Shown here piece by piece: positions 6,024 through 52,510 of a stretch of 64,000 nucleotides of DNA. The DNA comes from a bacterium (GTDB taxonomy: Bacteria; Pseudomonadota; Alphaproteobacteria; Acetobacterales; Acetobacteraceae): the NCBI GenBank assembly GCA_026224825.1, contig JAMFRO010000002.1, forward strand, positions 62,001-126,000, in the 5' to 3' direction. Both the position numbers and the translations under genes were made by a program. Within the stretch, counting starts at the first letter, position 1. Every line of letters begins with the position of its first letter. The notes beneath the pieces are model-generated. The model worked only from the letters and a program-made list of their open reading frames with translations, searched no databases and was not told where the DNA came from.

Positions 6024-6251
6024 GTAAACAAAAGGCTGGGGCTCCGCCCCTGACCCCGCCGGGGCCTGAGGCCCCGGACCCCCATTAGCTTTTAAAAGGA
6101 TATGAGAGAGGGGTAATGCGCCTCATGGACCTGTGAACATTGTTCACAGGTCCATGAGGCGCATTACCCCTCTCTCATATCCTTAAAGTCTAGGGGTCTG
6201 GGGCCTAAGGCCCCAGCGGGGTCAGGGGCGGAGCCCCAGCCTTTTGTTTAC
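6024..6251. repeat. Large modular palindrome A between convergent genes
   Basis: A 228-base imperfect palindrome filling the gap between the stops of the ABC transporter and the Hint-domain gene. The inner part is a perfect inverted repeat, arms 6096-6139 and 6141-6184 (44 bases each, one-base spacer). Middle modules are GGGGCCTGAGGCCCC on the left and GGGGCCTAAGGCCCCAG on the right. The outer arms start and end with GTAAACAAAAGGCTGGGG and its complement, including GGGGCGGAGCCCC followed by a T-rich tract in each outward direction. The outward T tracts suggest bidirectional termination. Related elements occur at four other places in the window. Confidence 0.9.
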
Positions 6252-7426
6252 CCAGACACCAACCGAACCCCAATCTGCCGTGCGGCGATGCGGGCGCGGA
6301 CGGCGTCGAGATGGGGGCCGGTGTAGTGCAGGGGGGCGCAGGCGAGGGTGTCCCGGCGGTGTTGCATGGTGGTGGGGTGGTCGACGAGGACGGAGGTGTC
6401 GTTGTCGAAGGCGCCGCGGTGGCCGGTGTCCAGGTAGGATTCGGCGGGGGTGGATTCGGCGAAGATGATGGCGTGCTGGGGCAGTTCGAGGTGGTAGTAG
6501 GTGATGTTGTTGCAGCGGTGGTCCTGGCGGATGGAGTTCCAGTTCACCAGCTCTTTGGCGGGGATGAGGATGCCGTCGAAATAGAGGGCGTGGTCGGGTG
6601 AGATGGCGAGGTCGCGGGCGGGCACGCCGTCGGCCAGGGCGCCGGCTTCGATGATGATGGGGCGCACGGCTTCCGGGCGGCGGAAGGATTTGATGTTTTC
6701 GACGCGGCGGCTGCCGATCCAGACGATGGGTTGTTCCTCGCCGTCCGGGGTGATGAGGAGGTCGCCGATGGCGAGGTCTTCGACCGGGATATCGCCGCGT
6801 GTGGTGAGGATGAGTGTGCCGGCGGCGAAGCAGGGGTTGGAGTTGGTTTCGTTGTTGACCGGGGTGGTGGTGGTGAAGACGCCGTCTATGAACGGGTTGT
6901 TGGCGTTGGGGTTGGTGCGCAGCTCGAAGGTGAGATCGAGCGTGGCGGTCTCCACGGCGGTGCCGAACAGGCCGATGGCGATGTCCTCGATGATGGTCGC
7001 TTCATTGGCGGTGAGGGTGAAGGGGGTACCGGCGCTCCAGCTTGCGGTGCCGTCGATGATGGTGATGGTATTCCCGCTTTGCGCCGCGTAGGTTTCGTGG
7101 CTTTCGAAATCAGTATTGTCGCTGCTGGCGGTGGTGGACACATCCATGGCGGTGAAGAGGGATTCGAAGACCTGGATGGTGGCGAAGTCGTTAAGGCCGC
7201 CGGCGCCGCCATAGGCACCGGGCAGGAAATTGGTGATGCTGCCGTTGAAATAGGCGCTGCTGGTGGCGGTGCCGTTGGTGGTGACGGTTTCCACGCCGAT
7301 GGCGCCGCGGGTGAAGATGACCACCCCGTCGATGCCCTCATTGTTCAGGAACTGGATGTTGGTTGGCACGTCGAACGGCTGGGTGATGGTGCCGGGGCCG
7401 TAGGAGGCGATGGTGTAACTCGTCAT
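6248..7426 (-). CDS. Hint-domain protein with repetitive N-terminal region
   Basis: A 392-residue protein. Residues from about 205 onward form a Hint (hedgehog/intein) module: C-F-A-A-G-T-L-I-L-T, G-D-I-P-V-E-D-L-A-I-G-D, P-I-V-W-I-G, then I-S-P-D-H-A-L-Y-F-D-G-I-L-I-P-A-K-E-L-V-N and a Y-Y-H-L-E-L-P-Q-H block. The N-terminal half is Thr/Ser/Gly/Asn-rich and beta-like, as in surface or secreted proteins. Hint domains self-cleave; the leading Cys and the later His are present, but substrate or ligation activity is unknown. ATG 7426 with AGGAAG upstream is preferred to TTG 7444. The last codons overlap palindrome A. Confidence 0.8.
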   Translation of the reverse strand: MTSYTIASYGPGTITQPFDVPTNIQFLNNEGIDGVVIFTRGAIGVETVTTNGTATSSAYFNGSITNFLPGAYGGAGGLNDFATIQVFESLFTAMDVSTTASSDNTDFESHETYAAQSGNTITIIDGTASWSAGTPFTLTANEATIIEDIAIGLFGTAVETATLDLTFELRTNPNANNPFIDGVFTTTTPVNNETNSNPCFAAGTLILTTRGDIPVEDLAIGDLLITPDGEEQPIVWIGSRRVENIKSFRRPEAVRPIIIEAGALADGVPARDLAISPDHALYFDGILIPAKELVNWNSIRQDHRCNNITYYHLELPQHAIIFAESTPAESYLDTGHRGAFDNDTSVLVDHPTTMQHRRDTLACAPLHYTGPHLDAVRARIAARQIGVRLVSG

Positions 7427-7540
7427 TATACTTCCTGAACTCAACCCAGAGGGCGGCAGCGCACATTCCGCGCGAGGCCACAGCGATTCTGTATTACTCT
7501 AGATTGTACCGGAACGGGTTAATGAATCAACAAAGGTGAT

Positions 7541-8581
7541 TCAGATAATAAAGCCGCCGCCGAGGATTCTGGTGCCGTCGTAGAACACCGCGGCCTGGCC
7601 GGGGGCGGCGAGTGCCGGTTCGTCCAGGGTGAGGGTGGCGCCGGTGCCATTCGGGGTGATGGCGGCGGGGTGCAGCGTGTCGCGGGCGCGGAGCTTGGCG
7701 GTGGCGCGGATTTCGCGGGGCTCGACGAGCCAGTTGACGTCGCGCAAGGTGACGATCTTGCTCTGCGTGCCGCGTGGGCCGACGACGATGCGGCGGGTGC
7801 CGGGCTCGATTTTTTTGACCACCATGTGGGCGGCGGCGTCCGGCAGGCGCTTGGCCTGGCCGATGGTGTAGCGGGCGATACCCTGGTGCGCGCCGAGTAC
7901 GCGGCCATCCTCGGCGACGACTTCGCCGGACTCCAGCGCATCGGGGCGGAATTTTTCGACGATGCCGGCGTAGGAGCCGGAGGGGACAAAGCAGATGTCC
8001 TGGCTGTCGGCTTTTTCGGCCACGGCCAGGCCCATTTCCAGGGCCACGGCACGGACTTCGGCTTTTGAGGCGTAGCCGCCGAGGGGGAAGCGGCAGAAAT
8101 CGAGCTGCGCGCGGGTGGTGGCGAAGAGGAACCAGCTCTGGTCGCGGTTTTCATCCACGGCCTGGTGCATTTCGGCGCCGTTGGGCCCGTCTATGCGGCG
8201 GACGTAATGCCCGGTGGCCATGGCTTCGGCGCCGAAATCACGGGCCATTTCAAGAAGATCGCCGAATTTTAGGTGCTGATTGCAGGCGATGCAGGGCACC
8301 GGGGTTTCGCCGGCGGCGTAGCTATCGGCAAAGGCCGACATTACGGATTTTTTGAAGCGGGCCTCGGAATCCACCACGTAATGGGCGATGCCGAGGCGGT
8401 CGGCGACGCGCTTGGCATCGTATATGTCCTGGCCGGCGCAGCAGGCACCTTTGCGGGCCGTTGCGGCGCCGTGGTCGTAAAGCTGGAGGGTGATGCCGAT
8501 CACCTCATGGCCGGCGCGCGCCATCAGCCCGGCTACCACCGAGCTGTCGACCCCTCCGGACATGGCGACGGCGATTTTCAT
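7541..8581 (-). CDS. mnmA: tRNA-specific 2-thiouridylase MnmA
   Basis: A 346-residue enzyme that thiolates U34 of tRNA-Lys/Glu/Gln, using ATP and persulfide sulfur. It has the N-type ATP pyrophosphatase P-loop S-G-G-V-D-S-S-V near the start, the catalytic-Cys region P-C-I-A-C-N, G-H-Y-V-R, D-Q-S-W-F-L-F, and the second catalytic Cys in D-S-Q-D-I-C-F. ATG 8581 is chosen over a longer frame because it starts the first strand M-K-I-A-V-A-M-S-G-G and overlaps the fdx stop by one base (TAATG). Located downstream of cysE-iscS-fdx, which can supply its sulfur. Confidence 0.96.
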   Translation of the reverse strand: MKIAVAMSGGVDSSVVAGLMARAGHEVIGITLQLYDHGAATARKGACCAGQDIYDAKRVADRLGIAHYVVDSEARFKKSVMSAFADSYAAGETPVPCIACNQHLKFGDLLEMARDFGAEAMATGHYVRRIDGPNGAEMHQAVDENRDQSWFLFATTRAQLDFCRFPLGGYASKAEVRAVALEMGLAVAEKADSQDICFVPSGSYAGIVEKFRPDALESGEVVAEDGRVLGAHQGIARYTIGQAKRLPDAAAHMVVKKIEPGTRRIVVGPRGTQSKIVTLRDVNWLVEPREIRATAKLRARDTLHPAAITPNGTGATLTLDEPALAAPGQAAVFYDGTRILGGGFII

Positions 8582-8904
8582 TACCCTGCCTTCTTGCTCG
8601 GGGGGAGCGTTACGGTGAGACCGTCCAGCGCGTCGGTGATGACGATCTGGCAGCCAAGGCGCGAGGTTTTCTGCAGGCCGAAGGCGACATCCAGCATGTC
8701 TTCTTCCTCTTCGGCGGCGGGTTTCAGTCTGCCGTACCATTCGGCGGCGACGATGACATGGCAGGTGGAGCAGGCGAGCGAGCCCTCGCAGGCGCCTTCG
8801 ATATCGACGCCGTGCTTGTGGGCTACCTCCAGCACGGAGAGGCCGTTCGGGGCCTCAACCTCGCGGGGCTGGCCATTGCGTTCGATAAAAGTGATTTTCG
8901 GCAT
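8581..8904 (-). CDS. fdx: ISC-type [2Fe-2S] ferredoxin
   Basis: A 107-residue adrenodoxin-like ferredoxin. Cluster ligands are C-E-G-S-L-A-C-S-T-C with a distal L-G-C-Q, the typical CX5CX2C...C spacing. The acidic E-E-E-E-D-M-L-D segment is the usual partner-binding patch. It supplies electrons for Fe-S cluster assembly and fits directly downstream of the cysteine desulfurase. ATG 8904 (M-P-K-I-T-F) has AGGA upstream and is preferred over TTG 8913. The stop overlaps the mnmA start by one base. Confidence 0.93.
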   Translation of the reverse strand: MPKITFIERNGQPREVEAPNGLSVLEVAHKHGVDIEGACEGSLACSTCHVIVAAEWYGRLKPAAEEEEDMLDVAFGLQKTSRLGCQIVITDALDGLTVTLPPSKKAG

Positions 8905-8936
8905 CGTGTACAAATCCTGCGGCGTTCGCGGGTTCG

Positions 8937-10022
8937 TTAAGCGGAATGCTCCGCTTTCCGCAAGGCGCGTTTTACCATGGCTGCATAGGCGGTGGTGAAT
9001 TTCTCTACAGCTTCGGCCGTGACATTCCAGGGCAGAGAGACGCGAATGGCCTGGCCGGCGAGGTCGCCATAGCCCATCGCGGTGAGGACATGGCTGGCCG
9101 CGAGCTTGCCGGAGGAGCAGGCGGAACCGGCGGATACGGCGATGCCTTCCATGTCCAAAGCGATAAGCTGGGTTTCGGCGCGGATGCCGGGCAGGGCCAG
9201 GTTGGTGGTGTTGGGCAGGCGGGGGGCGGTGCTGCCCGCCGCTATGGCGCCGAGGTTGATGCAGAATGTCTCTATTTCATCGCGGAAGGTGGCGATTTTA
9301 CCGGCCTCGTAGGGCTCGCCCAGAGCCGCGGCCAGACCGGCGATGGCGGGCAAAGCCTGGGTGCCGCCGCGCCTGCCCTGTTCCTGGCCACCGCCTTTGG
9401 TCAGAGCCTCAATCTCGATGCCCTGGCGGATGATGAGCGCCCCTGCCCCCATCGGCCCGCCGAATTTATGGCCGGAGAGGGAGATACTGGTGGCGCCCAT
9501 GCCGAGCCAGTCGCGGTTGTTGCGGCCGATGGCCTGGACGGCGTCGATGTGCAGCAGCGCGCCTTGGGCGGTGCAGGTTTTCGCGGCGAATTCAATGTCA
9601 TGCAGCACGCCAGTCTCGTTATTGGCGGCCATCAGGGCAACCAGCGCGCCGGGATGCGCCACCAGGGCTGCTTCCAGGGTTTCGGGGGCGAGCGTGCCAT
9701 CGGGGCGCACCGGCAGGGTTATGGCGCCGGGTGCGGTGCGGATGGAGTCATGCTCGGTGGCGCCGATGAGGATGGGACGGCCCTTCCCCAAGGCGTGGAG
9801 CGCCAAAGCATTGGCCTCGGTGGCGCCGGAGGTGAAGATGACGTCCGCCGGGCGGGCGTGGCAGTAGCCGGCCACGGTCTCGCGGGCGGATTCCAGGATT
9901 TTGCGGGCGTCGCGGCCGGCGGCGTGGATGGAGGAGGGGTTGCCCGCCGCCATCGCCGCCAGCGCCGCCTCCCGGGCCGCCGGACGCAACGACTCGGTGG
10001 CGTTGGCATCGAGATATATCAG
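8937..10022 (-). CDS. iscS: Cysteine desulfurase (class V aminotransferase), apparent CTG start
   Basis: A PLP enzyme that takes sulfur from cysteine as a persulfide. It has Y-L-D-A-N-A-T near the N-terminus, [10 protein letters not shown], the PLP lysine in [10 protein letters not shown], and the catalytic-Cys loop S-A-G-S-A-C-S-S-G. The first standard start in frame is TTG 9989, which would remove the conserved I-Y-L-D-A-N-A-T strand. A CTG at 10022-10020 sits at the expected position, overlaps the cysE stop (CTGA) and has GAGGA about nine bases upstream, so it is used here. The IscS/NifS/SufS-like subtype is assigned from context with fdx and mnmA. Confidence 0.9.
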
Positions 10023-10675
10023 ATGGAATAATCCTCGGGCATGCGGGGCAGACGGGCTTCCAGCGCGGTCAGTTGGGCATGCAATAGCGCCAGATCGTGC
10101 AGCAGCGGGTCGGAGCTGGGGTCGCTGGGCGTGCCGTAGGCATCGAACCGGGGCTGGCCGCTGCGGGCCACGGCGCGGGCGGGAATGCCGACCATTGTGG
10201 TATTGGCCGGGACCGAAGCCACCACCACCGCATTAGCGCCGATGCGCGCATTCTGGCCGATCTCGATTGCCCCCAGCACTTTGGCGCCGGCGCCGATGAT
10301 GACATTATCGCCGATGGTGGGGTGGCGCTTGCCATGATCGGAGCTGGTGCCGCCCAGAGTAACCTGATGATATATATAGACATCATCACCTATCTCAGCG
10401 GTCTCGCCGATAACCACCCCCATGCCGTGGTCGATGATGAAGCGCCGGCCGAGTTTGGCGCCGGGGTGGATTTCAATGCCCGTGAGGAACCGCCCGATAT
10501 GCGAGACGAAGCGCCCGGAGGTGGTGAAACCATGCCGCCAGAGGTAGCCCGCGAGGTGGTGAATCATTACGGCATGCAGCCCAGGATAGCATAAAAATAC
10601 TTCCAGATCTGAGTGGGCCGCCGGGTCACGCTGCCGGTAGGCTTGGATCGTCTCACGTAAAAACATAAGGGCCAT
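10019..10675 (-). CDS. cysE: Serine O-acetyltransferase
   Basis: A 218-residue enzyme making O-acetylserine, the carbon precursor of cysteine. An N-terminal helical part is followed by left-handed beta-helix hexapeptide repeats: [53 protein letters not shown]. The catalytic His of I-D-H-G and the V-T-L-G-G-T segment are present. The length is close to the short (EpsC-type) form. It is the first gene of the cysE-iscS-fdx-mnmA group, and its stop overlaps the presumed start of iscS. Confidence 0.95.
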
Positions 10676-10907
10676 GCGAATTTCCGTGGATAAACAGGCC
10701 GAAAGCGCGCTATATTAGCGGACCTGAGGGGAAACCCTGTGTTAAACTATCCGTAATGTGAGACTATGATTTGACTAGACCTTAGTTATCCGGACCGTAC
10801 CGGTCAACTTTCGGATGAGCAAGGCGGGAAGGCTGCCGCCCGCTCTAAATTGTGGCAAAATCCCTGCCGACGCCTTAAAATGCGTAGGCTATGAAAGACG
10901 AGTAAGA

Positions 10908-11573
10908 ATGCCTGAAGTGATGTTCGCCGGCCCCGAGGGCCGCCTAGAGGGACGCTACCACCATGCCAAGGAACGCGGTGCGCCCCTCGCTTTGGTACTG
11001 CACCCGCACCCGCTGCATGGCGGGACCATGAATAACCGCATCACCTATTCCATGTACCAGGTCTATCAACGCCTGGGCTTCTCCGTCATGCGCTTCAACT
11101 TTCGCGGCGTGGGACGCAGCCAGAGCAAGTTCGACGGCGGCATGGGCGAGATTAACGACGCCGCTGCGGCGCTGGACTGGATGCAGGCGCTCAACCCCGG
11201 CCATGGCGGGTTGTGGATCGCCGGCTACTCCTTCGGCGCGTTCGTGGGCATGCAACTGCTGATGCGCCGGCCGGAAGTGTCCGGCTGGGTCTCCGTGGCC
11301 CCGCCCGCAGCGCATTACGACTTCGGCTTCCTCGCCCCCTGCCCTTGCGGCGGGCTGTTGATCCACGGTGATTCCGACGAGATGGTGCCGGAGAATTCCG
11401 TGCGCAAACTGGTCGATAAGCTGAACCTGCAAAAAGGTGTGGCCATCGACTACCGCGTGTTCGAAGGCGCGGACCATGTATTCGCCAACCACGCCGACCG
11501 TGTGGCCGAAGCCGTGGAAGGCTACGTGACCCAGCAACTGGCCCGCAAGCAGATGGCGCTCGCTGCTGATTGA
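10908..11573 (+). CDS. Alpha/beta hydrolase, dienelactone-hydrolase-like
   Basis: A 221-residue cytoplasmic protein. It has L-V-L-H-P-H-P-L-H-G-G-T-M (oxyanion region), F-N-F-R-G-V-G-R-S, and a nucleophile-elbow-like G-Y-S-F-G-A-F with the likely catalytic Ser. Then come H-G-D-S-D-E-M-V-P (Asp) and G-A-D-H-V-F (His). The family is widespread in alphaproteobacteria and of unknown substrate. ATG 10908 is chosen because the conserved M-P-E-V-M-F-A-G-P-E-G-R-L-E-G start is typical; an open frame continues to 10815 without family similarity. A strong terminator lies 53 bases after the stop. Confidence 0.88.
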   Translation: MPEVMFAGPEGRLEGRYHHAKERGAPLALVLHPHPLHGGTMNNRITYSMYQVYQRLGFSVMRFNFRGVGRSQSKFDGGMGEINDAAAALDWMQALNPGHGGLWIAGYSFGAFVGMQLLMRRPEVSGWVSVAPPAAHYDFGFLAPCPCGGLLIHGDSDEMVPENSVRKLVDKLNLQKGVAIDYRVFEGADHVFANHADRVAEAVEGYVTQQLARKQMALAAD

Positions 11574-11587
11574 GGGCTGCCGATTAA

Positions 11588-11617: not shown

Positions 11618-11625
11618 TACGACTC

Positions 11626-11653: not shown

Positions 11654-11681
11654 GTGCACTGGCGCTGGGCTTACAAAAACT

Positions 11682-12714: not shown

Positions 12715-13293
12715 CTAGAACAATTCCAGCGCGCCGGTCTCTGGCGCCGGCTTGGGCAGCGGACGGGTGCGCTCGAGGTTGAGGATGGATTCCGTCTCAT
12801 TAGAGAGCAACACCTGGCGCGCGCGGCCCGACACGGGCCAGAACTGGATGCGCCGCCCCTGCTCGCCGCGCAAACTACCGCCGACCAATGAAACCCCTTC
12901 CTCACGCAAAAACTGCTCGGCGAAAATGGCGTTCAGCTCGCCGATATCGGTGAGGCCCTTGATCATCCGCGCACCCCCGAAGAGCTTGGCGCGCATCCGG
13001 CTTTTCACCCCCCCGCGCTGCAGCAGCCCGTTCAGCAGCAGCTCCATGGCGTGCACGCCGAAGCGCATGGCATCGCCGCCGGGTTTGCGATTCTTGCCGT
13101 CGCCAGGCAGAAGAAAGTGATTCATGCCGCCCAGACCCGCCACGCCATCCCAGATGCAGGCGGCGATGCAGGAGCCGAGGATGGTGGTGATCACCGTGTT
13201 CGGATTGTCATCGACGCAGTTCTCCCCTTGCACGATGTTGATTTTTCGTTCGACGGCCAGTGCCGTGGTCTGTGTACCGAGATATGTGGTCAT
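12715..13293 (-). CDS. cheD: Chemoreceptor glutamine deamidase CheD
   Basis: A 192-residue CheD. The catalytic Cys is in [13 protein letters not shown], the His in G-M-N-H-F-L-L-P, and the Thr/Gly-rich segment A-K-L-F-G-G-A-R-M follows. It deamidates glutamines of chemoreceptors and in some species is controlled by CheC or CheY-P; no cheC is seen here. The ATG overlaps the cheB stop (ATGA), so the two are translationally coupled. The last residues G-A-L-E-L-F extend past the usual domain. Confidence 0.94.
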
Positions 13294-23442: not shown

Positions 23443-23580
23443 GCGCGCCGCCCTGAGCAACGCCGTTTTGTAGTTTGTTAATCTGTCTCATCCCAATGGT
23501 AATCGTTCGTTTTATTCTGGCAGATGCCCCCGCCCGGGTGAAGCCCCAATCCTGCGCCTCCGCCCCGCCCGCCGGGTTAC

Positions 23581-23878
23581 GGCATAGGGCGGGGGCGTTT
23601 CCACGGAAAAGGCCAGGGCTCTGCCGTCGTGCGCAGCACGCCTCCGGCGTGACGACCCGCCAAGGGCCGAAGGGCCCTTGGATCCCACCTAGGTCTTGGA
23701 AAGGGATGCCCTCCACAGTGTGCTCGTGGAAAGCCCGTGCAGGGCATCCCTTTCCAAGACCCGAAGTAGTGGGGGTCTGGGGCCGTCACGCCGGAGGCGT
23801 GCTTCGCACGACGGCCCCAGCGGGGTCAGGGGCGGAGCCCCAGCCTTTTTTTCCGTGCAAACACCCCTGCCCTATGCC
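23581..23878. repeat. Large modular palindrome B between tandem exporter genes
   Basis: About 298 bases. The outer arms pair GGCATAGGGC and a TTTCCACGGAAAA-like block at 23581-23620 with their complement at 23840-23878. A module GTCGTGCGCAGCACGCC with its complement follows, then GCCAAGGGCCGAAGGGCCCTTGG. The inner hairpin has arms 23693-23712 and 23741-23760 (20 bases, perfect). The right end carries GGGGCGGAGCCCC followed by seven T, and it overlaps the last codons of the second exporter. The surrounding gap 23443-23871 holds nothing else. Confidence 0.88.
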
Positions 23879-25386
23879 GCAGCCTGGCGGGCGGGGCGGA
23901 GGAGTAGGATGGTGGGGGCGACGAGGATGCTTAGGATCAGCATCAGTTTGAAGTCATTGCCGTAGGCGATGATCTGGGCCTGGCGGGTGATGGTTGCATC
24001 CAGCGCCGCTGCGCCTGTGGCGTGCAAGGGGTTCCAGAATTGGCCTGCGGCGCCTGATTGCAGGGCGTGGTTGAAGGGGGTGATTACCGCGCTGATGATG
24101 GCGTGGTTGACCTGTGTGTTGGCGGTGAGCAGCGCGCCGGTGACGGAGATGCCGATGGCGCTGCCCATGTTGCGGATGAGGCTGAACACCCCGGCCGCCT
24201 CGACGCGCAGCTCCAGCGGCAGAGTGGCGTAGATGACGGTGCTGAGCGGCATGAACACCAGCCCGACGGAGAAGCCCTGGATGATGCCGGTGACGACCAC
24301 GGTGGTTTCGGAAACATCCGGCGTCCACCGGGTGAATTGATACAGCGCCCATACGCCGATGACCGAGCCGGTACCGATGAACCAGCGCACGTCCACGCGG
24401 TTGACGAAGCGGCCGGCGAACAGCATGGCGGCCATGGTGCCGAGACCCCGGGGGCCGAGCAGCAGGCCGGTGGTGATGACTGGATCGCCCGAGAGATTTT
24501 GCAAATAGGGCGAGAGCAGCGCCAGCGTGGCGTATTGCACCAGGCCAACGAGGAAGACCAGGATTGTGCCGGTGGCGAAATTCACATCGGCGAAGAGTTT
24601 GGGCGAGAGGAAGGGTTTGGGGGCGAGGGCCGTCTGCACCGCGAAGAGGTAAAAGCCGATGCCGGCCAGGCAGGCCTCGGTGACGATCTCGGGGGCGGAG
24701 AACCAGTCCACGATCTCGCCGCGGTCCAGCAGCAGTTGGAGCGCTCCCACACCCAGGCTAAGCGCGAGGAAGCCGAGCCAGTCGAAGCGCATGGCACGGA
24801 CGACGGGGGTTTCTTTCAGGAAGATGAGCATGCCCAAAGTGGCGAAGATGCCGAGCGGCACGTTGACGTAGAACACCCAGCGCCAGGACAGCTCCTGCGT
24901 CAGCCAGCCGCCGATGATGGGCCCCGCCACCGGCCCCACCTGCACGCCGATGCCCCACATGGCGAGCGCTCTACCCCGTTTCTCGCCGGGGTACAGCTCC
25001 ATGAGCACGGTCTGGCTGAGCGGCACCAGCGCCCCGCCGCAGGCCCCCTGGATGAGCCGGAACAGCACGATCTGCCCCACGGATTGCGCCATGCCGCACA
25101 ATACCGAGGCGATGGTGAAGCCGCCGATGGAGAGCACGAACACCCGCGTGCGGCCGAAGCGTGAGACCAGGAAGCTGGTGGGGGCGGTCATGATGGCGCA
25201 GGAGATGATGTAGCTGGTGAGGACCCAGTTGATCTCATCCTGGCTCGCCGCCATCGTGCCCTGCATATAGGGAAGTGCTACGTTGGCGATGGTGCTGTCC
25301 AGCGCCTGAACCAATGTTGCCAGCATGGTGCAGATGGTGAGAATGATGAGCGCCGTCCGGCTGTAGCCAGTTTGAACGCTGTTCAT
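23872..25386 (-). CDS. DHA2-family multidrug exporter (EmrB/QacA-like), copy 2
   Basis: A 504-residue 14-helix major facilitator, strongly similar to the copy at 21889: L-D-S-T-I-A-N-V-A-L-P-Y-M-Q-G-T-M, G-R-T-R-V-F-V-L-S-I-G-G-F, R-L-I-Q-G-A-C-G-G-A-L-V-P-L, G-P-V-A-G-P-I-I-G-G-W-L-T. It ends in a short basic tail whose last codons lie inside palindrome B. A drug-proton antiporter by family; the substrate is unknown. ATG 25386 is supported by good alignment of the first helix with the paralog. Confidence 0.92.
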   Translation of the reverse strand: MNSVQTGYSRTALIILTICTMLATLVQALDSTIANVALPYMQGTMAASQDEINWVLTSYIISCAIMTAPTSFLVSRFGRTRVFVLSIGGFTIASVLCGMAQSVGQIVLFRLIQGACGGALVPLSQTVLMELYPGEKRGRALAMWGIGVQVGPVAGPIIGGWLTQELSWRWVFYVNVPLGIFATLGMLIFLKETPVVRAMRFDWLGFLALSLGVGALQLLLDRGEIVDWFSAPEIVTEACLAGIGFYLFAVQTALAPKPFLSPKLFADVNFATGTILVFLVGLVQYATLALLSPYLQNLSGDPVITTGLLLGPRGLGTMAAMLFAGRFVNRVDVRWFIGTGSVIGVWALYQFTRWTPDVSETTVVVTGIIQGFSVGLVFMPLSTVIYATLPLELRVEAAGVFSLIRNMGSAIGISVTGALLTANTQVNHAIISAVITPFNHALQSGAAGQFWNPLHATGAAALDATITRQAQIIAYGNDFKLMLILSILVAPTILLLRPARQAAA

Positions 25387-38650: not shown

Positions 38651-38728
38651 ATGAAGTTCTGGCCGTCCACATCAATACTAGCCCTCGCCTTCGCCGCCGG
38701 TATGGCCATCGCCGCCGTCACCGGCTGA
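38651..38728 (+). CDS. Possible 25-residue membrane or leader peptide
   Basis: ATG 38651 with AGGAG eight bases upstream opens a 25-codon frame: M-K-F-W-P-S-T-S-I-L, then a hydrophobic stretch A-L-A-F-A-A-G-M-A-I-A-A-V-T-G. It resembles a signal peptide or a very small membrane protein. It ends six bases before palindrome C, so it may be the stub of a longer gene cut off by that element. Coding status is uncertain. Confidence 0.35.
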   Translation: MKFWPSTSILALAFAAGMAIAAVTG

Positions 38729-38734: not shown

Positions 38735-39000
38735 CCGCGGCGTTTTAAATCCGGGTTCTCGGCGTGACTCGCAAGGGGACTTTGTCCCCCTGCACCCCCT
38801 ACCAGGGGCCGAAAGGCCCCTGGACCCCACCCGGGTTATAAAAGAGGGCCCATCCCAGCACGTGTGTTGCACGAGTAGGGATGGGCCCTCTCTTATAACC
38901 CGAATCTGATGGGGGTCTGGGGCCTCAGGCCCCAGGCAGGGGGTGCAGGGGGTAAGCCCCCTGCGAGTCACGCCGAGAACCCGGATTTAAGACGCCGCGG
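38735..39000. repeat. Large modular palindrome C
   Basis: 266 bases. The outer arms are CCGCGGCGT plus a 30-base block at 38735-38779 and its complement ending at 39000, overlapping the last codons of the phosphatase gene. Next come a GGGGGTGCAGGGG-type module and GGGGCCGAAAGGCCCC on the left against GGGGCCTCAGGCCCC on the right. The inner hairpin arms are about 38832-38856 and 38878-38902. The middle modules match those of palindromes A, B and E; the outer arms are unique to this copy. Confidence 0.88.
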
Positions 39001-39535
39001 TGACCTGCCAGCCCGTGTCGGTGGGGGCGCAGTACAGGGGTACGGCGTTGGGGGTTAGGCCTTGTTTGGGCAGGGCCATCAGGTCGCGCAGGGCGCGGAA
39101 TACGCCGCCGTGGGCGACGATGAGGAGCGGGCCGGGGGTTAGGATGTTGGTCATGGCTGCGTCTATGCGGGCCAGGACCTGGGCGAAGCTTTCGGCGTTG
39201 GGGGGGGTGAAACGGCCTTCGAGCCATTCCGGGAACCAGGGGAGCAGGGGTTTGCCTTCCATGCCGCCGAACTGGACTTCGCGCAGGCCGGGTTCGAAGG
39301 CGATGGGCAGGTTCAGGAATTCGTTCACGATTTCAGCGGTTTCGCGGGCGCGCAGCAAAGGCGAGGCGATGATGCCGGTAATGCCTTGCCCTGCCAGAAG
39401 CGGGCCGGCGGTGGCGGCCTGGGCGCGGCCGGTGGCATTCAGCGGGATATCCAGCGCCCCTTGGCTCAAGCCGGCGGCGTTATAATCTGTCTCGCCATGC
39501 CGGAGGAACCAGAAGGGGATTTGCGGCAGGCTCAA
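38987..39535 (-). CDS. Histidine phosphatase family protein (phosphoglycerate-mutase-like)
   Basis: A 182-residue enzyme: F-L-R-H-G-E-T-D-Y-N (phospho-His motif), S-P-L-L-R-A-R-E-T-A-E and V-A-H-G-G-V-F-R (second His), with the general acid Glu in L-R-E-V-Q-F-G-G-M-E-G. Substrate unknown; relatives include cobalamin phosphatases and broad sugar phosphatases. The start is TTG 39535, which overlaps the GST stop (TTGA), with AAGG upstream contributed by the 15-bp repeat. The last codons lie in palindrome C. Confidence 0.85.
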   Translation of the reverse strand: MSLPQIPFWFLRHGETDYNAAGLSQGALDIPLNATGRAQAATAGPLLAGQGITGIIASPLLRARETAEIVNEFLNLPIAFEPGLREVQFGGMEGKPLLPWFPEWLEGRFTPPNAESFAQVLARIDAAMTNILTPGPLLIVAHGGVFRALRDLMALPKQGLTPNAVPLYCAPTDTGWQVTAAS

Positions 39536-40194: not shown

Positions 40195-40323
40195 AAATCG
40201 GTCTGGGAGAAATCGGTCTGGCGGCCGTATAGTGGTGATTTGCGAGCACCGGCGCGGAGCGCACCCTTGTACGCGAGCACCGGCGCGGAGAAAATCGCCG
40301 CTATACGGCCGCCAGACCGATTT
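40195..40323. repeat. Composite repeat between prs and the GST gene
   Basis: A perfect 23-base inverted repeat (40210-40232 and 40301-40323, beginning AAATCGGTCTGGCGGCC) encloses two direct copies of GCGAGCACCGGCGCGGAG (40242-40259 and 40273-40290). The left arm is itself preceded by a near copy (40195-40209). The right arm ends two bases from the prs stop, so the structure could act as its terminator. Confidence 0.9.
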
Positions 40324-40324
40324 C

Positions 40325-41260
40325 TCAGTCGAAAAGTGAGCTGACGGAACTTTCCGTAGAGATGCGGCGCATTGCCTCGGCCAGCAAGGGGGCGATGGAG
40401 AGTTGGCGCACATTATGCGCCAGGCGCACGGCTTCGGTGCCCATGATGGAGTCGGTGATGGTCAGCATCTCGATGGGAGAAGCGGCGATACGCGCCACGG
40501 CACCGCCGGAGAGCACGCCGTGCGACACGTAGACCTCGACGGATTTGGCGCCATTGGCCAGCAGCGCCTCGGCGGCGTTGCAGAGCGTGCCGCCGGAATC
40601 CACGATGTCATCCACCAGGATGCAATCTCGGCCTTCGACCTCACCGATGATGTTCATCACCTCGGACACCCCTGCCCGCTCGCGGCGCTTGTCGATGATG
40701 GCGAGGTCCGTGTTCAGCCGCGTGGCCATAAGGCGGGCGCGCACCACGCCGCCCACATCCGGCGAGACGATCATCGGGTCGCGGCTCGCGAAACGCTCCT
40801 CGATATCGCGCGAGAACAGCGGGGCGCCGGCGGTGAGGTTATCCACGGGGATATCGAAGAAGCCTTGGATCTGGCCGGCGTGCAGATCCAGGGTCAGCAC
40901 GCGGTTCGCACCAGCCTCGGTGATGAGATTGGCAACCAGCTTGGCGGAGATGGGCGTGCGCGGGCCGGATTTACGGTCCTGGCGGGCATAGCCGAAATAG
41001 GGGATCACCGGGGTGATGCGCCGTGCCGAGCTGCGGCGCAAAGCATCGCAGGTGATCAGCAATTCCATGAGGTTGTCGTTGGTCGGGTAGGAGGTGCTCT
41101 GTACCACGAACACATCCTCACCGCGCACGTTTTCCTGGATTTCCACGAACACTTCCATATCGGCGAAGCGGCGGATGGAGGCTTTGGCGAGCGGCAGGTT
41201 CAAACCGGCAGCCACAGCTTCGGCCAGAGGGCGGTTGCTGTTGCAGGCGACAATTTTCAT
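40325..41260 (-). CDS. prs: Ribose-phosphate pyrophosphokinase
   Basis: A 311-residue PRPP synthase: [27 protein letters not shown] (ATP site), [11 protein letters not shown], and the PRPP loop [14 protein letters not shown]. It makes PRPP for nucleotides, histidine and NAD. Typical length, ATG 41260. A composite repeat follows its stop. Confidence 0.97.
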
Positions 41261-44009: not shown

Positions 44010-44137
44010 AAACACAACTAAAAAGTTGTAAACAGACAATAAACTCCCCTCATGCGTGCACCTCTTGCTTGCCATGATTTTGTGCTAACCTTCTACGGAC
44101 ACATGACCTGCCTCGAGCGGGCGGAAGGAGTTTGACG

Positions 44138-44848
44138 ATGAGAGGTTTATGGCTTGCACCGGTGCTGCTGATTGGGACCTTGCTCCTGGCCAAGCCCGCC
44201 GCCGCACAGGATGCCTCCCCCGCCCAGATCCAGGGTATGATCACCGCTGGGCAGGATACTCAGGCCATCCAGGCGCTGGACAACGTGCTCGCCGCCCACC
44301 CTAAAAGCGGTGTCGGCTGGTATTTGCTGGCCGAGGCTTATGATGCGCAGAATAACGAGGATGCCGCCGGTAGCGCGCTGAATATGGCGGCGCGGACCAA
44401 CCCCGGCCTGCCCTTCGCCGATCCGCAAAGACTGGCGGAGCTGCAGGCGCATATCGCCGCCGCACAGCCGCGCAGCAGCGGGCATACCGTTATGCTGGTT
44501 ATCGGCGGGCTGTTGCTGCTGATGATCGTGCTGCGCTTCCTGCCCGGGCGCGACGCCGGCTCCCGCAACTATGGTTACACCGCCCCGCCGCCGCCGCCCG
44601 GCACCCCGCCCTACGGCTTCGGCTACGGCCCCAATACCGGCGGTGGGCTGGGCAGCGCGCTGATGGGCGGCCTCGCCGCCGGTGCGGGCTTCGCCGCCGG
44701 GGAACGCATCATCGACGGCATGATGGGCCAACCCAGCCAGCAACCCGGCCCGGACCAATCCCGCGACGACGGGCTAACCGGCAACCCAGGCTGGGACGGC
44801 ACCGGTACGCCGAGCGATGACGACCTGAGCAATACGGGGTGGTCTTAG
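44138..44848 (+). CDS. Exported TPR-like protein with glycine-zipper C-terminus
   Basis: A 236-residue protein. Signal peptide M-R-G-L-W-L-A-P-V-L-L-I-G-T-L-L-L-A-K-P-A-A-A-Q. One TPR-like pair follows (A-L-D-N-V-L-A-A-H-P-K-S-G-V-G-W-Y-L-L-A-E-A-Y-D). Then a transmembrane helix (T-V-M-L-V-I-G-G-L-L-L-L-M-I-V-L), a Pro/Gly/Tyr-rich linker, and G-G-G-L-G-S-A-L-M-G-G-L-A-A-G-A-G-F-A-A-G-E, a glycine zipper. Probably a membrane-bound scaffold; role unknown. ATG 44138 with AAGGAG. Palindrome D starts at the next base after its stop. Confidence 0.75.
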   Translation: MRGLWLAPVLLIGTLLLAKPAAAQDASPAQIQGMITAGQDTQAIQALDNVLAAHPKSGVGWYLLAEAYDAQNNEDAAGSALNMAARTNPGLPFADPQRLAELQAHIAAAQPRSSGHTVMLVIGGLLLLMIVLRFLPGRDAGSRNYGYTAPPPPPGTPPYGFGYGPNTGGGLGSALMGGLAAGAGFAAGERIIDGMMGQPSQQPGPDQSRDDGLTGNPGWDGTGTPSDDDLSNTGWS

Positions 44849-45089
44849 AAAAAGGCCAGGGCTCTGCCCTGAACCCGCTGGGGCCGTCGTGCGCAGCACG
44901 CCTTCGGCGAGACGGCCCCAGCCCCCCATTAGCTTTTAAGAATTGAAAAGGGCCTGCCTCCGAGGTGTTTGAAACACCGGGGAGGCAGGCCCTTTTCAAT
45001 TCTTAAGTTACGGGATCCAAGGGCCTTTCGGCCCTTGGCGGGTCGTCCGCCGGAGGCGTGCTGCGCACGACTGCAGAGCCCTGGCCTTG

Positions 45090-45091
<2 letters not shown>
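44849..45091. repeat. Large modular palindrome D between convergent genes
   Basis: 243 bases exactly filling the gap between the TPR-like gene and eno. The outer arms carry AAGGCCAGGGCTCTGC and complement, then GTCGTGCGCAGCACGCC and GCCAAGGGCC modules (shared with B). The inner hairpin has arms 44937-44961 and 44981-45005 (25 bases, perfect) with a loop holding GGTGTTTGAAACACC, also found in E. The CCATTAGCTTTTAA junction is shared with A. It probably terminates both transcripts. Confidence 0.9.
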
Positions 45092-46415
<1,324 letters not shown>

Positions 46416-46422: not shown

Positions 46423-46455
46423 TCGGGGCGCTCATCCCTGGGATGAGCGCCCCGA
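46423..46455. repeat. 33-base perfect palindrome upstream of eno
   Basis: Arms TCGGGGCGCTCATCCC (46423-46438) and GGGATGAGCGCCCCGA (46440-46455) pair perfectly around one T. Located between cysQ and eno, on the minus strand it follows cysQ and precedes eno. There is no T tract. It could be a terminator stem, an eno leader hairpin or a REP. Confidence 0.8.
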
Positions 46456-49225: not shown

Positions 49226-50145
49226 CAGAAATACCCCTCCTGCTTCTTCTTCTCCATGCTGGCACCGCCAGCATCTTTATCAATCACGCGGCCCTGGCGC
49301 TCGGAGGTGGTGGTCAGGAGCATTTCCTGAATCACTTCCGGCAGGGTCTTGGCTTCGGACTCAACCGCGCCTGAGAGCGGGTAGCAGCCGAGTGTGCGGA
49401 AGCGGATGGACTTCATCTCCGGCACTTCGCCGGGGGCGAAGGGGAAGCGGTCGTCATCAACCATGATGGTCAGGCCGTCGCGCTGCACCGTCGGGCGCTT
49501 GGCCGCGAAGTACAGAGGCACGATGGGGATGTTTTCCAGATGGATATACTGCCAGATGTCCAGCTCGGTCCAGTTGGAGATGGGGAACACGCGGATGCTC
49601 TCGCCCTTGGCCTTGCGGGCATTGTAGATATTCCACAATTCCGGGCGCTGGCTCTTGGGATCCCAGCGATGGTTGGTAGAGCGGAACGAGAAGATGCGTT
49701 CCTTGGCGCGGGATTTCTCTTCATCGCGGCGGGCACCACCGAAGGCGGCATCGAAACCGTATTTGTCGAGGGCCTGCTTGAGACCTTCGGTCTTCCACAT
49801 ATCCGTGTGCAGCGGGCCATGGTCGAACGGGTTGATGCCTTTGGCCTTGGCTTCCGGGTTTTGATAAACCAGCAGCTCCATGCCGCTCTCTTGCGCCATC
49901 TTGTCGCGCAGCTCGTACATGGCTTTGAACTTCCATGTCGTATCCACATGCAGCAGCGGGAAAGGCGGCGGGGAGGGATAGAACGCTTTACGCGCGAGGT
50001 GCAGCATCACCGCGGAATCCTTGCCCACGGAGTAGAGCATCACCGGCTTTTCAGTCTCGGCGACGACCTCACGCATGATATGGATCGATTCCGCCTCCAG
50101 ACGCTGCAAATGCGTCAGTGTCACCGTATCTGTCACGGCATCCAT
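49225..50145 (-). CDS. cysD: Sulfate adenylyltransferase subunit 2
   Basis: A 306-residue PP-loop ATP sulfurylase subunit: [47 protein letters not shown] and E-L-D-I-W-Q-Y-I. It works with CysN. First gene of the sulfate-activation operon. The 372-base gap upstream contains a palindromic candidate operator. ATG 50145. Confidence 0.96.
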
Positions 50146-50397
50146 TCAACCCGTCTCCTTACCCAATATTAAAGGCACCTCATTTGTTAACGAGGTCCCG
50201 CCACATAGCCCCGCCCCAGTCAATCTAAGACGTGGAGCGTTAATTCGCATGGCATGCCCCTGGAGGCAAACACAAAAGACACACCAAAATGGCCAAAACA
50301 TCGCTTACAAGCCATGAAACCAGGCCACACTGGGGTTAACAAAGCGCAAAAACGACATTTTATCTCTATTTAGTGCACTCTTTTAAGGGGTGAGCTT

Positions 50398-50419
50398 TAA
50401 GATAGTGAACACTATCTTA
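50398..50419. promoter_or_regulatory. Palindromic candidate operator upstream of cysD
   Basis: Arms TAAGATAGTG and CACTATCTTA, perfectly complementary around a two-base AA spacer, 253 bases upstream of cysD in an AT-rich stretch. The arm length and symmetry fit a dimeric repressor. No regulator gene is adjacent; identity unknown. Confidence 0.5.
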
Positions 50420-50466
50420 TGTCAACTTGACGGCGCATGCAATCACGGCAGGCATATAAACAGCTT

Positions 50467-50486
50467 CGGCCGCCCGAAGGCGGCCG
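50467..50486 (-). terminator. Probable lpxC terminator
   Basis: CGGCCGCC (50467-50474) pairs with GGCGGCCG (50479-50486) around a CGAA loop, 31 bases after the lpxC stop on the minus strand, followed there by AAGCTGTTTATAT. The T content is modest. Confidence 0.5.
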
Positions 50487-50517
50487 ATTGCGGTATCCGG
50501 CATTTTTCGAGAGGTTT

Positions 50518-51453
50518 TTAGGCGGCAGTAAGCTGCAACGGCGCTTCCACGGCGCCATTCACCAGCCGGTAATTGGCCTGATCCGCAAACAATTCCCGCA
50601 GCAGCAGGTTATTCAGCGCGTGGCCGGTGCGGCTGCCTATAAAGCGGCCTGAAATGGGCGCGCCGGCCAGGGCCAGGTCGCCGATCACATCCAGCAGCTT
50701 GTGACGCACGAACTCATCGGCGAAACGCAGGCCCTCGGGGTTGATCACCTTGGCGCCATCCACCACGATGGCGTTGGCCAGCGAGCCGCCCTGGGCCAGA
50801 CCGGCCTTGCGCAACGCCTCGATCTCGCCAAGCTGGGTGAAGGTGCGCGCCGCCGCGATCTCGCCGGCAAACCCCTCGGTGGAGAGGTGGAAATGATAGG
50901 CCTGGGCGCCAATGGCGGCGGCCTCAAACGCGATGGAGAGCGAGATGTCGAACCCTGCCCCGCCCTCGTTATGCGGGCGCAGTTCGGCGAAAGCGCCGTT
51001 ATGCTCAACCCGCACGGGGCGCAAAATCTCCAGCCGCTCGCGCAAACCGCCATGCTCAACCACGCCGGCGCTCTCGATGAGGAACAGGAAAGGGGCTGCC
51101 GAACCGTCGAACACCGGCAGTTCCGGTGCATTCACCTCGACCAGTACATCGTCAATCCCGGCCGCGAATAATGCCGCCATCAGATGCTCGACCGTGCCGA
51201 TTTTGGCTTCGCCCTCGGCAATCACCGTGCACAGGCGGGTGTCGGCCACGGCATCGAAGCGCGCCGGAATGTCCAGCCCCAGATCGGTCCGGCGGAACAT
51301 GATGCCGGCCCCGGTTTCCGCCGGCTTCAGCGCCATCGCCACCTCGGCCCCGCTATGCAGGCCGCGCCCCACAGCCGAGATCGCCGCTTTCAGCGTCCGC
51401 CGCGGGGCGGGGGCTGTCATGGCAAGGCTGTATCTTTCACGCAAGGACGACAT
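50518..51453 (-). CDS. lpxC: UDP-3-O-acyl-N-acetylglucosamine deacetylase
   Basis: A 311-residue zinc enzyme, the committed step of lipid A synthesis. Signatures: G-R-G-L-H-S-G, the zinc/catalytic T-V-E-H-L-M-A-A-L, E-V-N-A-P-E-L-P-V-F-D-G-S-A, F-V-R-H-K-L-L-D-V-I-G-D-L and T-G-H-A-L-N-N-L-L-L-R. ATG 51453 with CGGAG upstream; ATG 51420 is an alternative that would remove 11 residues. It is separated here from ftsZ by a small plus-strand pair, unlike species where lpxC follows ftsZ directly. Confidence 0.95.
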   Translation of the reverse strand: MSSLRERYSLAMTAPAPRRTLKAAISAVGRGLHSGAEVAMALKPAETGAGIMFRRTDLGLDIPARFDAVADTRLCTVIAEGEAKIGTVEHLMAALFAAGIDDVLVEVNAPELPVFDGSAAPFLFLIESAGVVEHGGLRERLEILRPVRVEHNGAFAELRPHNEGGAGFDISLSIAFEAAAIGAQAYHFHLSTEGFAGEIAAARTFTQLGEIEALRKAGLAQGGSLANAIVVDGAKVINPEGLRFADEFVRHKLLDVIGDLALAGAPISGRFIGSRTGHALNNLLLRELFADQANYRLVNGAVEAPLQLTAA

Positions 51454-51697
51454 GGAAACTCCGGTTTTAACCAGATGTTATATATCGCCCCTGGGGGGTG
51501 CGCCGCCAGTCAATCATTATTACTGATTATGTCGCCACAATACATTGATCTTATTTAATTGCTGCACCGCAGTGTGTTGTGAAAACCGCGCGCTTCATCA
51601 CGAAAATGTGCCAACGCCCAGGCCCTGAAACAAGCACGTAAATATTGCGGCCCACCAACAGCCATGCTCTGCTGCGCGTAACGGAGGAGGTCAAATA

Positions 51698-52018
51698 ATG
51701 ATCGTCGTCACCACAGAAAACATCGCCAATTTCCGCGTGAAGGAGACAATCGGCCAATGTTTCGGCGTGGTCGTGCGCTCACGCGGCCTCGGCGGTAATC
51801 TCATGGCCGGCTTACGCTCGCTGGTGGGCGGCGAAATCGTGGAATACACCAAAATGCTCGAAGAAGCCCGCCGCCACGCCATCGACCGGCTCGTCGCCAA
51901 TGCCCAGACCATGGGTGCCAACGCCATCATCATGCTGCGCTTCGACAGCTCCGAAATAGGCCAGACCATGAGCGAAATCGTCGCCTACGGCACCGCCGTG
52001 ATACTGGAGCCCGTATAA
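51698..52018 (+). CDS. YbjQ/UPF0145 family protein
   Basis: A 106-residue protein with the family features: T-T-E-N-I strand, G-V-V-V-R-S-R, a G-G-E-I-V-E-Y-T-K-M-L-E-E-A-R-x-x-A-I-D-R-L helix and G-A-N-A-I-I-M-L-R-F-D-S. It forms a pentamer in structural relatives and is of unknown function, sometimes called heavy-metal-binding. ATG 51698 follows a GGAGG. It shares TAATG with the next gene. Confidence 0.9.
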   Translation: MIVVTTENIANFRVKETIGQCFGVVVRSRGLGGNLMAGLRSLVGGEIVEYTKMLEEARRHAIDRLVANAQTMGANAIIMLRFDSSEIGQTMSEIVAYGTAVILEPV

Positions 52019-52311
52019 TGCTGCGCTCCTTCGTGCTCGGGCTGGGCGTGCTCCTGCTGGGCACCGGCGTGCTCGGCATCACGCTCGGCGGCGGCGGCCC
52101 CATGCTCGGCCCCCTCATCTTCGGCGTGCTGCTGCTCATCGGCACCATATTCGAGCCGCATTACAAACGAAATGAATCCACCCCGCCCAGCGACGGGTTC
52201 GCCCCCACCGGCGAACGCTTCCACGACCCCAACCAAAACCAAACCGTCGAAGTCTGGTACAACCCGACCACCGGCGAACGCCGGTATGTTGCGCTGGGCG
52301 CCGTGAAGTAA
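52018..52311 (+). CDS. Small membrane protein coupled to the YbjQ-like gene
   Basis: A 97-residue protein with two hydrophobic helices (V-L-G-L-G-V-L-L-L-G-T-G-V-L-G-I and L-G-P-L-I-F-G-V-L-L-L-I-G-T-I-F), then a polar C-terminus with a Y-N-P-x-T-G-E-R-x-Y motif of the kind found after WW-like segments. The ATG overlaps the YbjQ-like stop by one base, so the pair is coupled. No family is recognised. Palindrome E begins at its stop. Confidence 0.7.
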   Translation: MLRSFVLGLGVLLLGTGVLGITLGGGGPMLGPLIFGVLLLIGTIFEPHYKRNESTPPSDGFAPTGERFHDPNQNQTVEVWYNPTTGERRYVALGAVK

Positions 52312-52510
52312 AAAGGCCAGGGCTCTGCCCTGGACCCGCCAAGGGCCGAAAGGCCCTTGGATCCCGCTACTGAAGACTTAAAAAAGAGGCCTGCCACCAC
52401 GGTGTTTGAAACACCTAGGAGGCAGGCCTCTTTTTTAAGTCTTCAACTAATGGGGGTCTGGGGCCTCCAGGCCCCAGCGGGTCCAGGGCAGAGCCCTGGC
52501 CTTTTTCCTT
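52306..52510. repeat. Large modular palindrome E between convergent genes
   Basis: 205 bases between the small membrane protein gene and ftsZ. The outer arms contain CCAGGGC-TCT-GCCCTGG and complement with T tracts pointing outward on each strand. The middle modules are GCCAAGGGCCGAAAGGCCC and GGGGCCTCCAGGCCCCAG. The inner hairpin has arms 52372-52395 and 52421-52444 (24 bases, perfect), with a GGTGTTTGAAACACC loop shared with D. Both neighbouring stops touch or overlap it, so it likely terminates both, including the large division operon. Confidence 0.9.

Follow-up and report, generated by a model that had tools for sequence, protein, structure and literature searches.

The five large palindromes in the window (the whole 64,000-nucleotide stretch that was analysed), designated as A–E, are members of a dispersed repeat family in an Acidocella-type Acetobacteraceae. 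The characteristic member is a nested palindrome in which two inverted double-hairpin end units surround one core hairpin; an end unit comprises, in order, hairpin 1, hairpin 2 and an outward T tract, and the core hairpin belongs to one of several families. In the stretches of this genome examined, we found 77 copies with both ends, 75 of which exceed 150 bp, and 45 one-ended copies. Most elements span approximately 185–265 bp between the T tracts and are longer when private outer arms are counted. End units, cores and a module designated M recur in differing combinations, in agreement with the mosaic that a sequence-only reading of the window had proposed; the copies extend beyond A–E and are not simply vertically conserved copies without mosaic structure.

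All five palindromes were found where that reading had placed them, and inverted arm pairs were measured for each, but its limits for A and B were too narrow, both elements reaching further outwards. The elements, with the end units of E, are as follows.

6004..6271, no strand, element A with its outer arms, core family F3; outer arms 6004-6082/6193-6271 (79 nt, 91%), inner arms 6096-6139/6141-6184 (44 nt, perfect); convergent neighbours, ORF 4257-6023 (+), an SbmA/BacA-like ABC transporter, and ORF 6248-7444 (-), a Hint-domain protein.
23544..23915, no strand, element B, core family F2, module M in both ends; outer arms 23544-23610/23849-23915 (67 nt, 85%).
38735..39000, no strand, element C, F2-like core; arms 38735-38778/38957-39000 (44 nt, 95%).
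44849..45091, no strand, element D, core family F1 (variant AAGAATTGAAAAGGGCCTGCC), module M in both ends; inner arms 44936-44970/44972-45006 (35 nt, 94%); neighbours, TPR-protein ORF 44132-44848 (+), ending at 44848, and enolase gene 45090-46367 (-), ending at 45090.
52306..52510, no strand, element E, core family F1; outer arms 52306-52356/52460-52510 (51 nt, 82%), core hairpin arms 52371-52407 and 52409-52445 (37 nt, 92%); neighbours, 97-aa ORF 52018-52311 (+) and ftsZ 52509-54026 (-).
52310..52360, minus strand, left end unit of E, type P; hairpin 1 at 52339-52360 (minus strand, CCAAGGGCCGAAAGGCCCTTGG), hairpin 2 at 52317-52333, then CCTTTTT on the minus strand (terminator-like).
52459..52506, plus strand, right end unit of E, type Q; hairpin 1 at 52459-52476 (plus strand, TGGGGCCTCCAGGCCCCA), hairpin 2 at 52483-52499, then CCTTTTT (terminator-like).

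The window contains 130 exact 16-mer inverted pairs at most 420 nt apart, compared with a mean of 0.025 and a maximum of 1 in 40 dinucleotide-preserving shuffles. These pairs fall at seven places: A–E, another repeat at 40207–40326 and a single pair at 46423. The modules previously described as common among A, B, D and E were recovered: CCAAGGGCC and AAGGCCAGGGC are common to B, D and E, GTCGTGCGCAGCACGCC to B and D, and the GGTGTTTGAAACACC loop to D and E. C has outer arms that A, B, D and E do not share. Across the family, the outer limit is variable and is formed by AGGAAAAAGG, a longer CCGTGGAACACCCC arm or private arms.

ORF ends abut or overlap all five elements, and four of them lie between convergent genes, B being the exception, as had been read from the sequence. 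The outer arms of A cover the last codons of both adjoining ORFs (ends at 6023 and 6248). B is flanked on the right by the 3′ end of an MFS gene (23872–25386, −), the coding 3′ end of which forms the right arm at 23875–23915, and on the left by the 5′ side of a second MFS gene; the inverted copy of the former gene end, at 23544–23584, lies outside the called genes. At C, where ORFs end at 38728 and 38987 and a 25-codon ORF was read from the sequence, the stop codon of a histidine-phosphatase ORF (38987–39535, −) is within the right arm. Copies elsewhere in the genome are likewise located at gene 3′ ends, within approximately 50 nt of stop codons, with a median stop-to-element distance of 12 nt (5–95% range, 1–41 nt; extremes, −24 and 49; n = 117 gene ends). 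Among the 72 two-ended copies with both flanks called (five further copies, with uncalled flanks, were left out), 42 are in convergent, 29 in tandem and one in divergent contexts, compared with 9, 52 and 8, respectively, of the 69 adjacent gene pairs in the window (convergent versus rest, Fisher p = 2.5e-8).

The end unit was found in 104 of 150 genomes of the family Acetobacteraceae (84 at E ≤ 1e-6) and, at 1e-6, in 2 of 289 genomes across the class; its amplification was seen in this species and its sister G173. No Rfam family matched the window above the gathering score and no such family was reported in the open-licence PMC literature, consistent with the earlier statement that no named family has this structure. 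The elements coincide with assembly breaks: for 33 of the 45 one-ended copies, a contig end is at most 300 nt away.

The core arms are complementary although the family sequences differ, a feature absent from the sequence-only reading. In three groupings of 75 elements, which mix core families and of which only the totals were used, the selected core stems are paired in 370 of 375, 540 of 544 and 1076 of 1142 cells (94–99%), partly by construction because the best ungapped stem was picked for each element. At least two kinds of Watson–Crick pair, each counted only if present in at least two elements, occur in 17 of 24, 17 of 23 and 31 of 35 columns, which overstates independent pair changes because the copies are related by descent. 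Mispairs in the core stems are divided about equally between the G.U type (13) and the A.C type (17). The spacers (15 A/A, 10 T/T and 3 mixed of 28) are found in either orientation; of 25 informative pairs, 10 agree only after inversion of one member, L176 contributing to six of these ten. Palindromy also continues into the private flanks, with 29 of 71 tested elements exceeding the 99th percentile for mismatched pairs (the median is 23 for the elements versus 13 for mismatched pairs); this, too, had not been noted before. Core pairing, inverted spacers and flank palindromy are as fold-back template switching would predict, a process that creates and maintains hairpin stems according to a published study (PMC8794818). 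Concerted evolution over whole arms was not visible at 11 shared sites (mean alignment score, 125.6 within an element versus 126.2 between species) and was dropped, the claim being confined to the stems of the cores, the spacers and the private flanks. An ungapped arm comparison (non-concordant/concordant: F1, 2280/691; F2, 1028/321; F3, 74/109) was set aside because it ignores gaps.

Sites vary between the sister species, carrying a full element, a simple hairpin or nothing, in line with the spread that the sequence-only reading had proposed. Approximately 22 shared sites were readable from flank matches between the elements of this genome (G000) and 42 G173 stretches; therefore, many sites are old. 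Nine shared sites and C, D and E were compared letter by letter. C, D and E have elements in both genomes that differ in core or arms, and the core family differs at four of the nine fully compared sites (#1, #10, #56 and #80). Of 13 G173 elements selected for the absence of a known counterpart, 11 were located in G000, and none is full there, the element being reduced or missing. A scan for simple hairpins revealed four in the examined G000 stretches, all at sites retrieved in this comparison, and none in the examined G173 stretches. Such sites are compatible with either collapse or gain, and collapse of older elements can account for part of the site differences. In relatives, the E locus bears short A-tract/GC-stem/T-tract hairpins (L029, L030, L033, L034 and L038), the enolase 3′ side, the D locus, bears plain hairpins (G151 and G158), and some of these gene ends carry no hairpin.

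We consider that the elements are probably dispersed modular palindromic repeats that have replaced ordinary terminators and act as strong bidirectional terminators. Their position and anatomy suggest termination: they combine a hairpin with a T tract on both strands and lie behind stop codons with a convergent bias, as intrinsic bidirectional terminators do. The outward T tracts previously ascribed to the outer hairpins were recovered behind GC-rich hairpins, and E at either end and D at its left end were listed as terminator-like (the right end of D was not listed); C is an exception, its outer arms lacking CCTTTTT. This lack in C, together with F3 cores that have no T tract, counts against the terminator reading.

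Beyond termination, we infer movement and template switching. RNA from either side would fold into a long hairpin and terminate at the far CCTTTTT tract. Fold-back template switching or arm-to-arm conversion may homogenise the arms; this would also invert the spacer and copy gene ends outward. Modules would be exchanged via recombination between copies. New copies may arrive by such recombination or by some trans-acting enzyme, and collapse between near-identical hairpin-2 sequences would leave a simple hairpin, AAAAAGGCCAGGGC-NNN-GCCCTGGCCTTTTT. The absence of the palindrome nuclease SbcCD may make such palindromes tolerable: a search for SbcD gave no match over the cut-off in 38 genus genomes, with one weak match below it. 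Loss of SbcCD as the amplification trigger was dropped; because SbcD is lacking throughout the genus, its absence cannot explain why few genomes amplified the elements, and it would be permissive at most. A fuller scheme, which we offer tentatively, is that the palindromes maintain themselves without a transposase of their own. They would have nucleated where genes end, on small inverted matches such as complementary stop codons of convergent genes. Inward growth would come from palindromic modules acquired at the tips of hairpins, and outward growth from copies of gene 3′ ends; fold-back template switching would keep the arms alike in a lineage without SbcCD, and terminator function would pay for palindrome upkeep.

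A different mover would be a RAYT (REP-associated tyrosine transposase), with the end units as REPs paired as in REPINs. As in REPs, BIMEs and REPINs, small hairpin units form inverted pairs in high copy number (77 inverted end pairs here) at intergenic sites, often behind genes, and true RAYTs occur in the bacterial family: NF047646 (NCBIfam) matched 28 of 150 genomes at E ≤ 0.001 (25 over the cut-off), PF01797 matched 17 of 150, and three RAYT proteins tested gave E values of 1e-58 to 5e-54. An end unit was present at 4 of 20 RAYT loci examined; in L154 and L152, it lies approximately 130–230 bp away from the RAYT. However, a RAYT-type transposase, which the sequence-only reading had suggested seeking, was not found in this 94%-complete genome with either model, and NF047646 matched none of the three genus members of the 150-genome sample, this genome included. 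Units were present in 23 of 28 RAYT-positive and 81 of 122 RAYT-negative genomes (p = 0.12, no significant link), and at least 20 units in 13 of 28 and 35 of 122, respectively (p = 0.08), as tallied among the matches listed, at most 36 per genome. Moreover, each end unit is a double hairpin set within a nested palindrome that has a long core, and it lacks a GTAG/CGTC tag with the described stem. PMC3733652 describes GTAG- or CGTC-tagged palindromes of 20–40 nt, with an 8–9 bp stem in the CGTC class, and lists Acetobacteraceae as lacking CGTC repeats; only module M, which starts with CGTC and has stems of approximately 5–6 bp, resembles an inverted CGTC pair. RAYT as the mover was dropped on its absence from this genome and the lack of a significant association over the 150 genomes, and the REPIN reading as a whole is unlikely. 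Spread as mobile sequences, as originally proposed, is partly supported by the differences between sisters, but not by a RAYT or by target-site duplications: none was established, and one empty site (L301/L333), judged by eye, has no clear duplication.

Alternatively, ordinary strong terminators may have evolved in place through selection on RNA pairing and gene conversion among loci, with no mobility. The position behind genes and the sites common to G000 and the 42 G173 stretches are in favor of this view, and fast two-step compensatory change is documented for terminators (PMC5381666). We nevertheless regard it as improbable: the short hairpins that relatives carry at E and after the enolase gene are unrelated, similar end units recur at more than 70 different junctions, and the 11 G173 sites, selected for having no counterpart, lack a full element in G000. 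The palindromy beyond the element in 29 of 71 cases also argues against it, as do the near-equal mispair types, though a two-way terminator would favor neither. A MITE-like non-autonomous DNA transposon with a palindromic body, moved by some DDE or other transposase of the clade, would account for inverted ends, dispersed copies and presence/absence between sister species; the transposase search covered Y1/RAYT only. This origin seems very unlikely given the variable outer boundary, the lack of an observed target duplication and the unusual target rule that insertion right behind stop codons would need.

Compared with the preferred reading of dispersed terminator-like repeats, several other systems are partly alike. 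Fungal and algal mitochondrial double-hairpin elements and palindromic repeats reportedly include dispersed hairpins and palindromes inserted within palindromes, but the elements here are larger nested units with two-way T tracts that occupy a fixed position after stop codons in a bacterial chromosome. Template-switch maintenance of hairpins (PMC8794818) and quasipalindrome correction likewise involve homogenised arms, inverted spacers and compensatory changes of several bases; they are described for RNA genes and coding sequences, whereas in this genome the process would apply to approximately one hundred large palindromes. Intrinsic bidirectional terminators of convergent genes share the place and the A tract-GC stem-T tract order in both directions; here, however, they would be a dispersed repeat family with several nested stems, in places where relatives carry plain, unrelated hairpins.

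In the usual laboratory bacteria, long palindromes are regarded as unstable or lethal. A genome with approximately one hundred nested palindromes is a natural system for studying how palindromes originate, keep their symmetry and collapse. The paired sites in the sister species would permit a quantitative test of whether compensatory change stems from template switching. If the elements terminate transcription, the ends of many convergent genes in one lineage would have come under the control of a single repeat family.

The five large palindromes reported by the sequence-only reading are real, far above chance expectation, and belong to a family of nested palindromes that lie behind genes and have been amplified in this lineage. 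The members of the window are as follows, with the family of the core (the central long hairpin, of which there are several families).

Element A, 6004..6271, palindrome with a core of family F3
Element B, 23544..23915, palindrome with a core of family F2
Element C, 38735..39000, palindrome with a core of family F2
Element D, 44849..45091, palindrome with a core of family F1
Element E, 52306..52510, palindrome with a core of family F1

The source genome (G000; 4.27 Mb, 108 contigs) has Acidocella among its closest named relatives by LpxC comparison (protein identity of 93% to Acidocella sp. NGEE_A_bin42 and 73% to Acidocella aminolytica). With element E as a blastn query, at least 107 matching pieces were found in G000 among the best 40 of 191 candidates. 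Matches to a signature pattern numbered 79 + 81 (reversed control, 0 + 0), and R1, a covariance model of the double hairpin at each element end (the end unit), gave at least 150. Around these matches we fetched 113 merged pieces including the window (365,675 bases), with three more added later. These stretches, selected for containing elements, extended the family well beyond A–E: 77 elements had both ends recognised, 75 of them longer than 150 bp, and 45 were one-ended, 33 lying no more than 300 nt from a contig end. Element C was scored one-ended because its outer arms differ. Taking two contig-end halves as one, we estimate a total of about 100–110 elements.

Each element end reads, from inside to outside, hairpin 1, GCGGGTC, hairpin 2 and CCTTTTT, and the distance from T tract to T tract has a median of 191 bp (10–90%, 186–234; maximum, 264). 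The variable parts of the ends are the following.

Hairpin 1, type P: CCAAGGGCC...
Hairpin 1, type Q: TGGGGCC...
Module M, a small palindrome present in some end units: GTCGTGCG-AAG-CACGCC...GACGAC

The 75 elements that exceed 150 bp comprise 31 plain P/Q, 14 plain Q/Q, 24 with module M at one end or at both, and six with an untypable end. The module lies within the hairpin 1 loop at 16 of 150 ends and takes the place of the hairpin 2 tip at 14, giving palindromes inside palindromes.

R1 matched 104 of 150 family genomes at E <= 0.01 and 84 at 1e-6 (counted from the table), with at most the best 36 matches per genome considered. Within the genus, 29 of 38 genomes matched at E <= 0.01 and nine did not; G000 had at least 143 matches and its sister species G173 at least 142 (among the best 143 candidates), G158 had 57 and the other 35 had 0–27. 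Across the class, 2 of 289 genomes matched at E <= 1e-6, namely G000 itself and one from another family, and three further members of the family of G000 in that sample gave no match. Among seven best-hit loci in other genera, L141 has two strong inverted units flanking an unrelated core, L140 and L138 have a weak second unit, and L139, L142, L143 and L144 have one unit only. Separately, an inverted repeat with 35-nt arms (94%) overlaps gene ends at window 40207-40326; this ~110-bp segment is a distinct dispersed repeat with many copies, by blast, in the genus relatives G158 and G153.

The placement at gene 3' ends was upheld. The distance from gene 3' end to element had a median of 12 nt (range, -24 to 49; 117 ends), and 5' sides lay 7–521 nt away (32 cases). 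Both neighbours were called for 72 elements (5 uncalled): 42 lay between convergent, 29 between tandem and 1 between divergent genes, compared with 9, 52 and 8 among 69 adjacent gene pairs in the window (p = 2.5e-8). Gene calling used a simple codon score, and pairs flanking the window's own elements are counted among the 69. The C-terminal codons and stop of a histidine-phosphatase ORF (window 38987-39535) lie inside a palindrome arm of C, and by eye they differ from those of the G173 orthologue (L273); elements may thus rewrite protein C-termini. Adjoining C is a 25-codon ORF (MKFWPSTSILALAFAAGMAIAAVTG; window 38651-38728, + strand); by eye, G173 and G150 have look-alikes in the corresponding position, so it may encode a conserved small protein.

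The same sites in relatives carry simpler or different structures. In A. aminolytica and four MAGs, plain short two-way hairpins occupy the interval between ftsZ and its neighbour (site E); G173 has an element with another core variant there, and L032 has a longer, different insert. The neighbour gene of ftsZ was not found in L031, L035-L037 and L039. Plain hairpins also stand behind enolase (site D) in G151 and G158, where the left neighbour is, however, a different gene, and in G173 this site carries a related element. At site C, no such hairpin was found in G151 and G150. A different hairpin, long and perfect, occupies the site in G153, and in G158 there is a gap of 1.8 kb; the G173 element at this site differs in its outermost arms and in its core. 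Because the elements occupy terminator positions, plain terminators stand there in relatives, and stems are followed by T tracts in both directions, we take them to be putative two-way terminators.

At least one flank of 31 of 122 G000 entries matched the 42 fetched G173 stretches, and about 22 sites are shared once weak and repeated flank matches are set aside; the core family differs between the species at 4 of the 9 printed in full. Conversely, 13 G173 elements lacking a known counterpart, a sample picked for absence, were sought in G000. Eleven sites were located and two were not, and none of the 11 carries a full element in G000. Junctions matched close by on both sides at five loci: L301 is empty, its stop codons apparently separated by 3 bp; L302, L305 and L320 have only a simple hairpin, AAAAAGGCCAGGGC-NNN-GCCCTGGCCTTTTT, and L303 has a remnant. 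Where the left flank alone matched, L313 has the simple hairpin with one mismatch, L311 a truncated copy, L295 nothing, and L321 a terminator that is unrelated. At L304 and L314 the element is absent and a longer insert separates the flanks. In the fetched G000 stretches the simple hairpin occurs at only four places (L302, L305, L320 and L313), which fits collapse from a full element, although it may instead represent a precursor state. Elsewhere, L338 (G000:C26:142600-143900) has a truncated element followed by sequence unmatched at the sister locus and transposon-like by eye. Two opposite-orientation elements on one 18.9-kb contig (G000:C8:5837-6056 and 12877-13096) have flanks matching a single G173 stretch; a larger segment may thus have been duplicated in inverted orientation.

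As to the mover, the RAYT-type (REP-associated tyrosine) transposase that had been suggested was not detected in G000 by PF01797 or the RAYT model NF047646. RAYTs are present in the family and are not significantly tied to the end unit. Such transposases occur in other Acetobacteraceae genera (L145-L147, L150-L152, L154, L155), some near an end unit. Recombination among copies would account for module exchange, not for new sites.

In the best ungapped core stems of the 75 elements, in family groupings that are mixed and whose copies are related by descent, 370/375, 540/544 and 1076/1142 cells were paired (stems picked as best). In 17/24, 17/23 and 31/35 columns, no fewer than two kinds of Watson-Crick pair were present, each of them in two elements or more; mispairs comprised 13 of the G.U type and 17 of the A.C type. 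The spacers of 28 arm-oriented F1 cores were A/A in 15, T/T in 10 and mixed in the other 3; 10 of 25 informative pairs match only when inverted, six of these involving one element, and the L014 spacer matches those of L007 and L214 exactly once inverted. Symmetry can extend outside: complementarity 8–70 nt beyond the ends had a median score of 23 across an element versus 13 in mismatched elements, and 29 of the 71 tested exceeded the 99th percentile of the latter. At B the final 41 coding bases of an MFS gene recur inverted on the opposite side, outside called genes. By contrast, in a whole-arm comparison at 11 shared sites, within-element similarity was no higher than between-species similarity.

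A study of quasipalindrome correction reportedly treats arm homogenisation and spacer inversion as signs of template switching. The symmetry data fit fold-back template switching, and a published account describes these two features as its signs (PMC8794818). No SbcD match over the cut-off was obtained in the 38 genus genomes (one weak match, in G154), compared with 8 of 14 control genomes over the cut-off and 13 of 14 matched. SbcD is part of a nuclease that attacks palindromes, and the lack of matches over the cut-off would be permissive only.

Taken together, the nested palindromes have their kin among dispersed palindromic repeats. The family is without a name as far as we searched, and the maintenance of its arms is unusual and testable.
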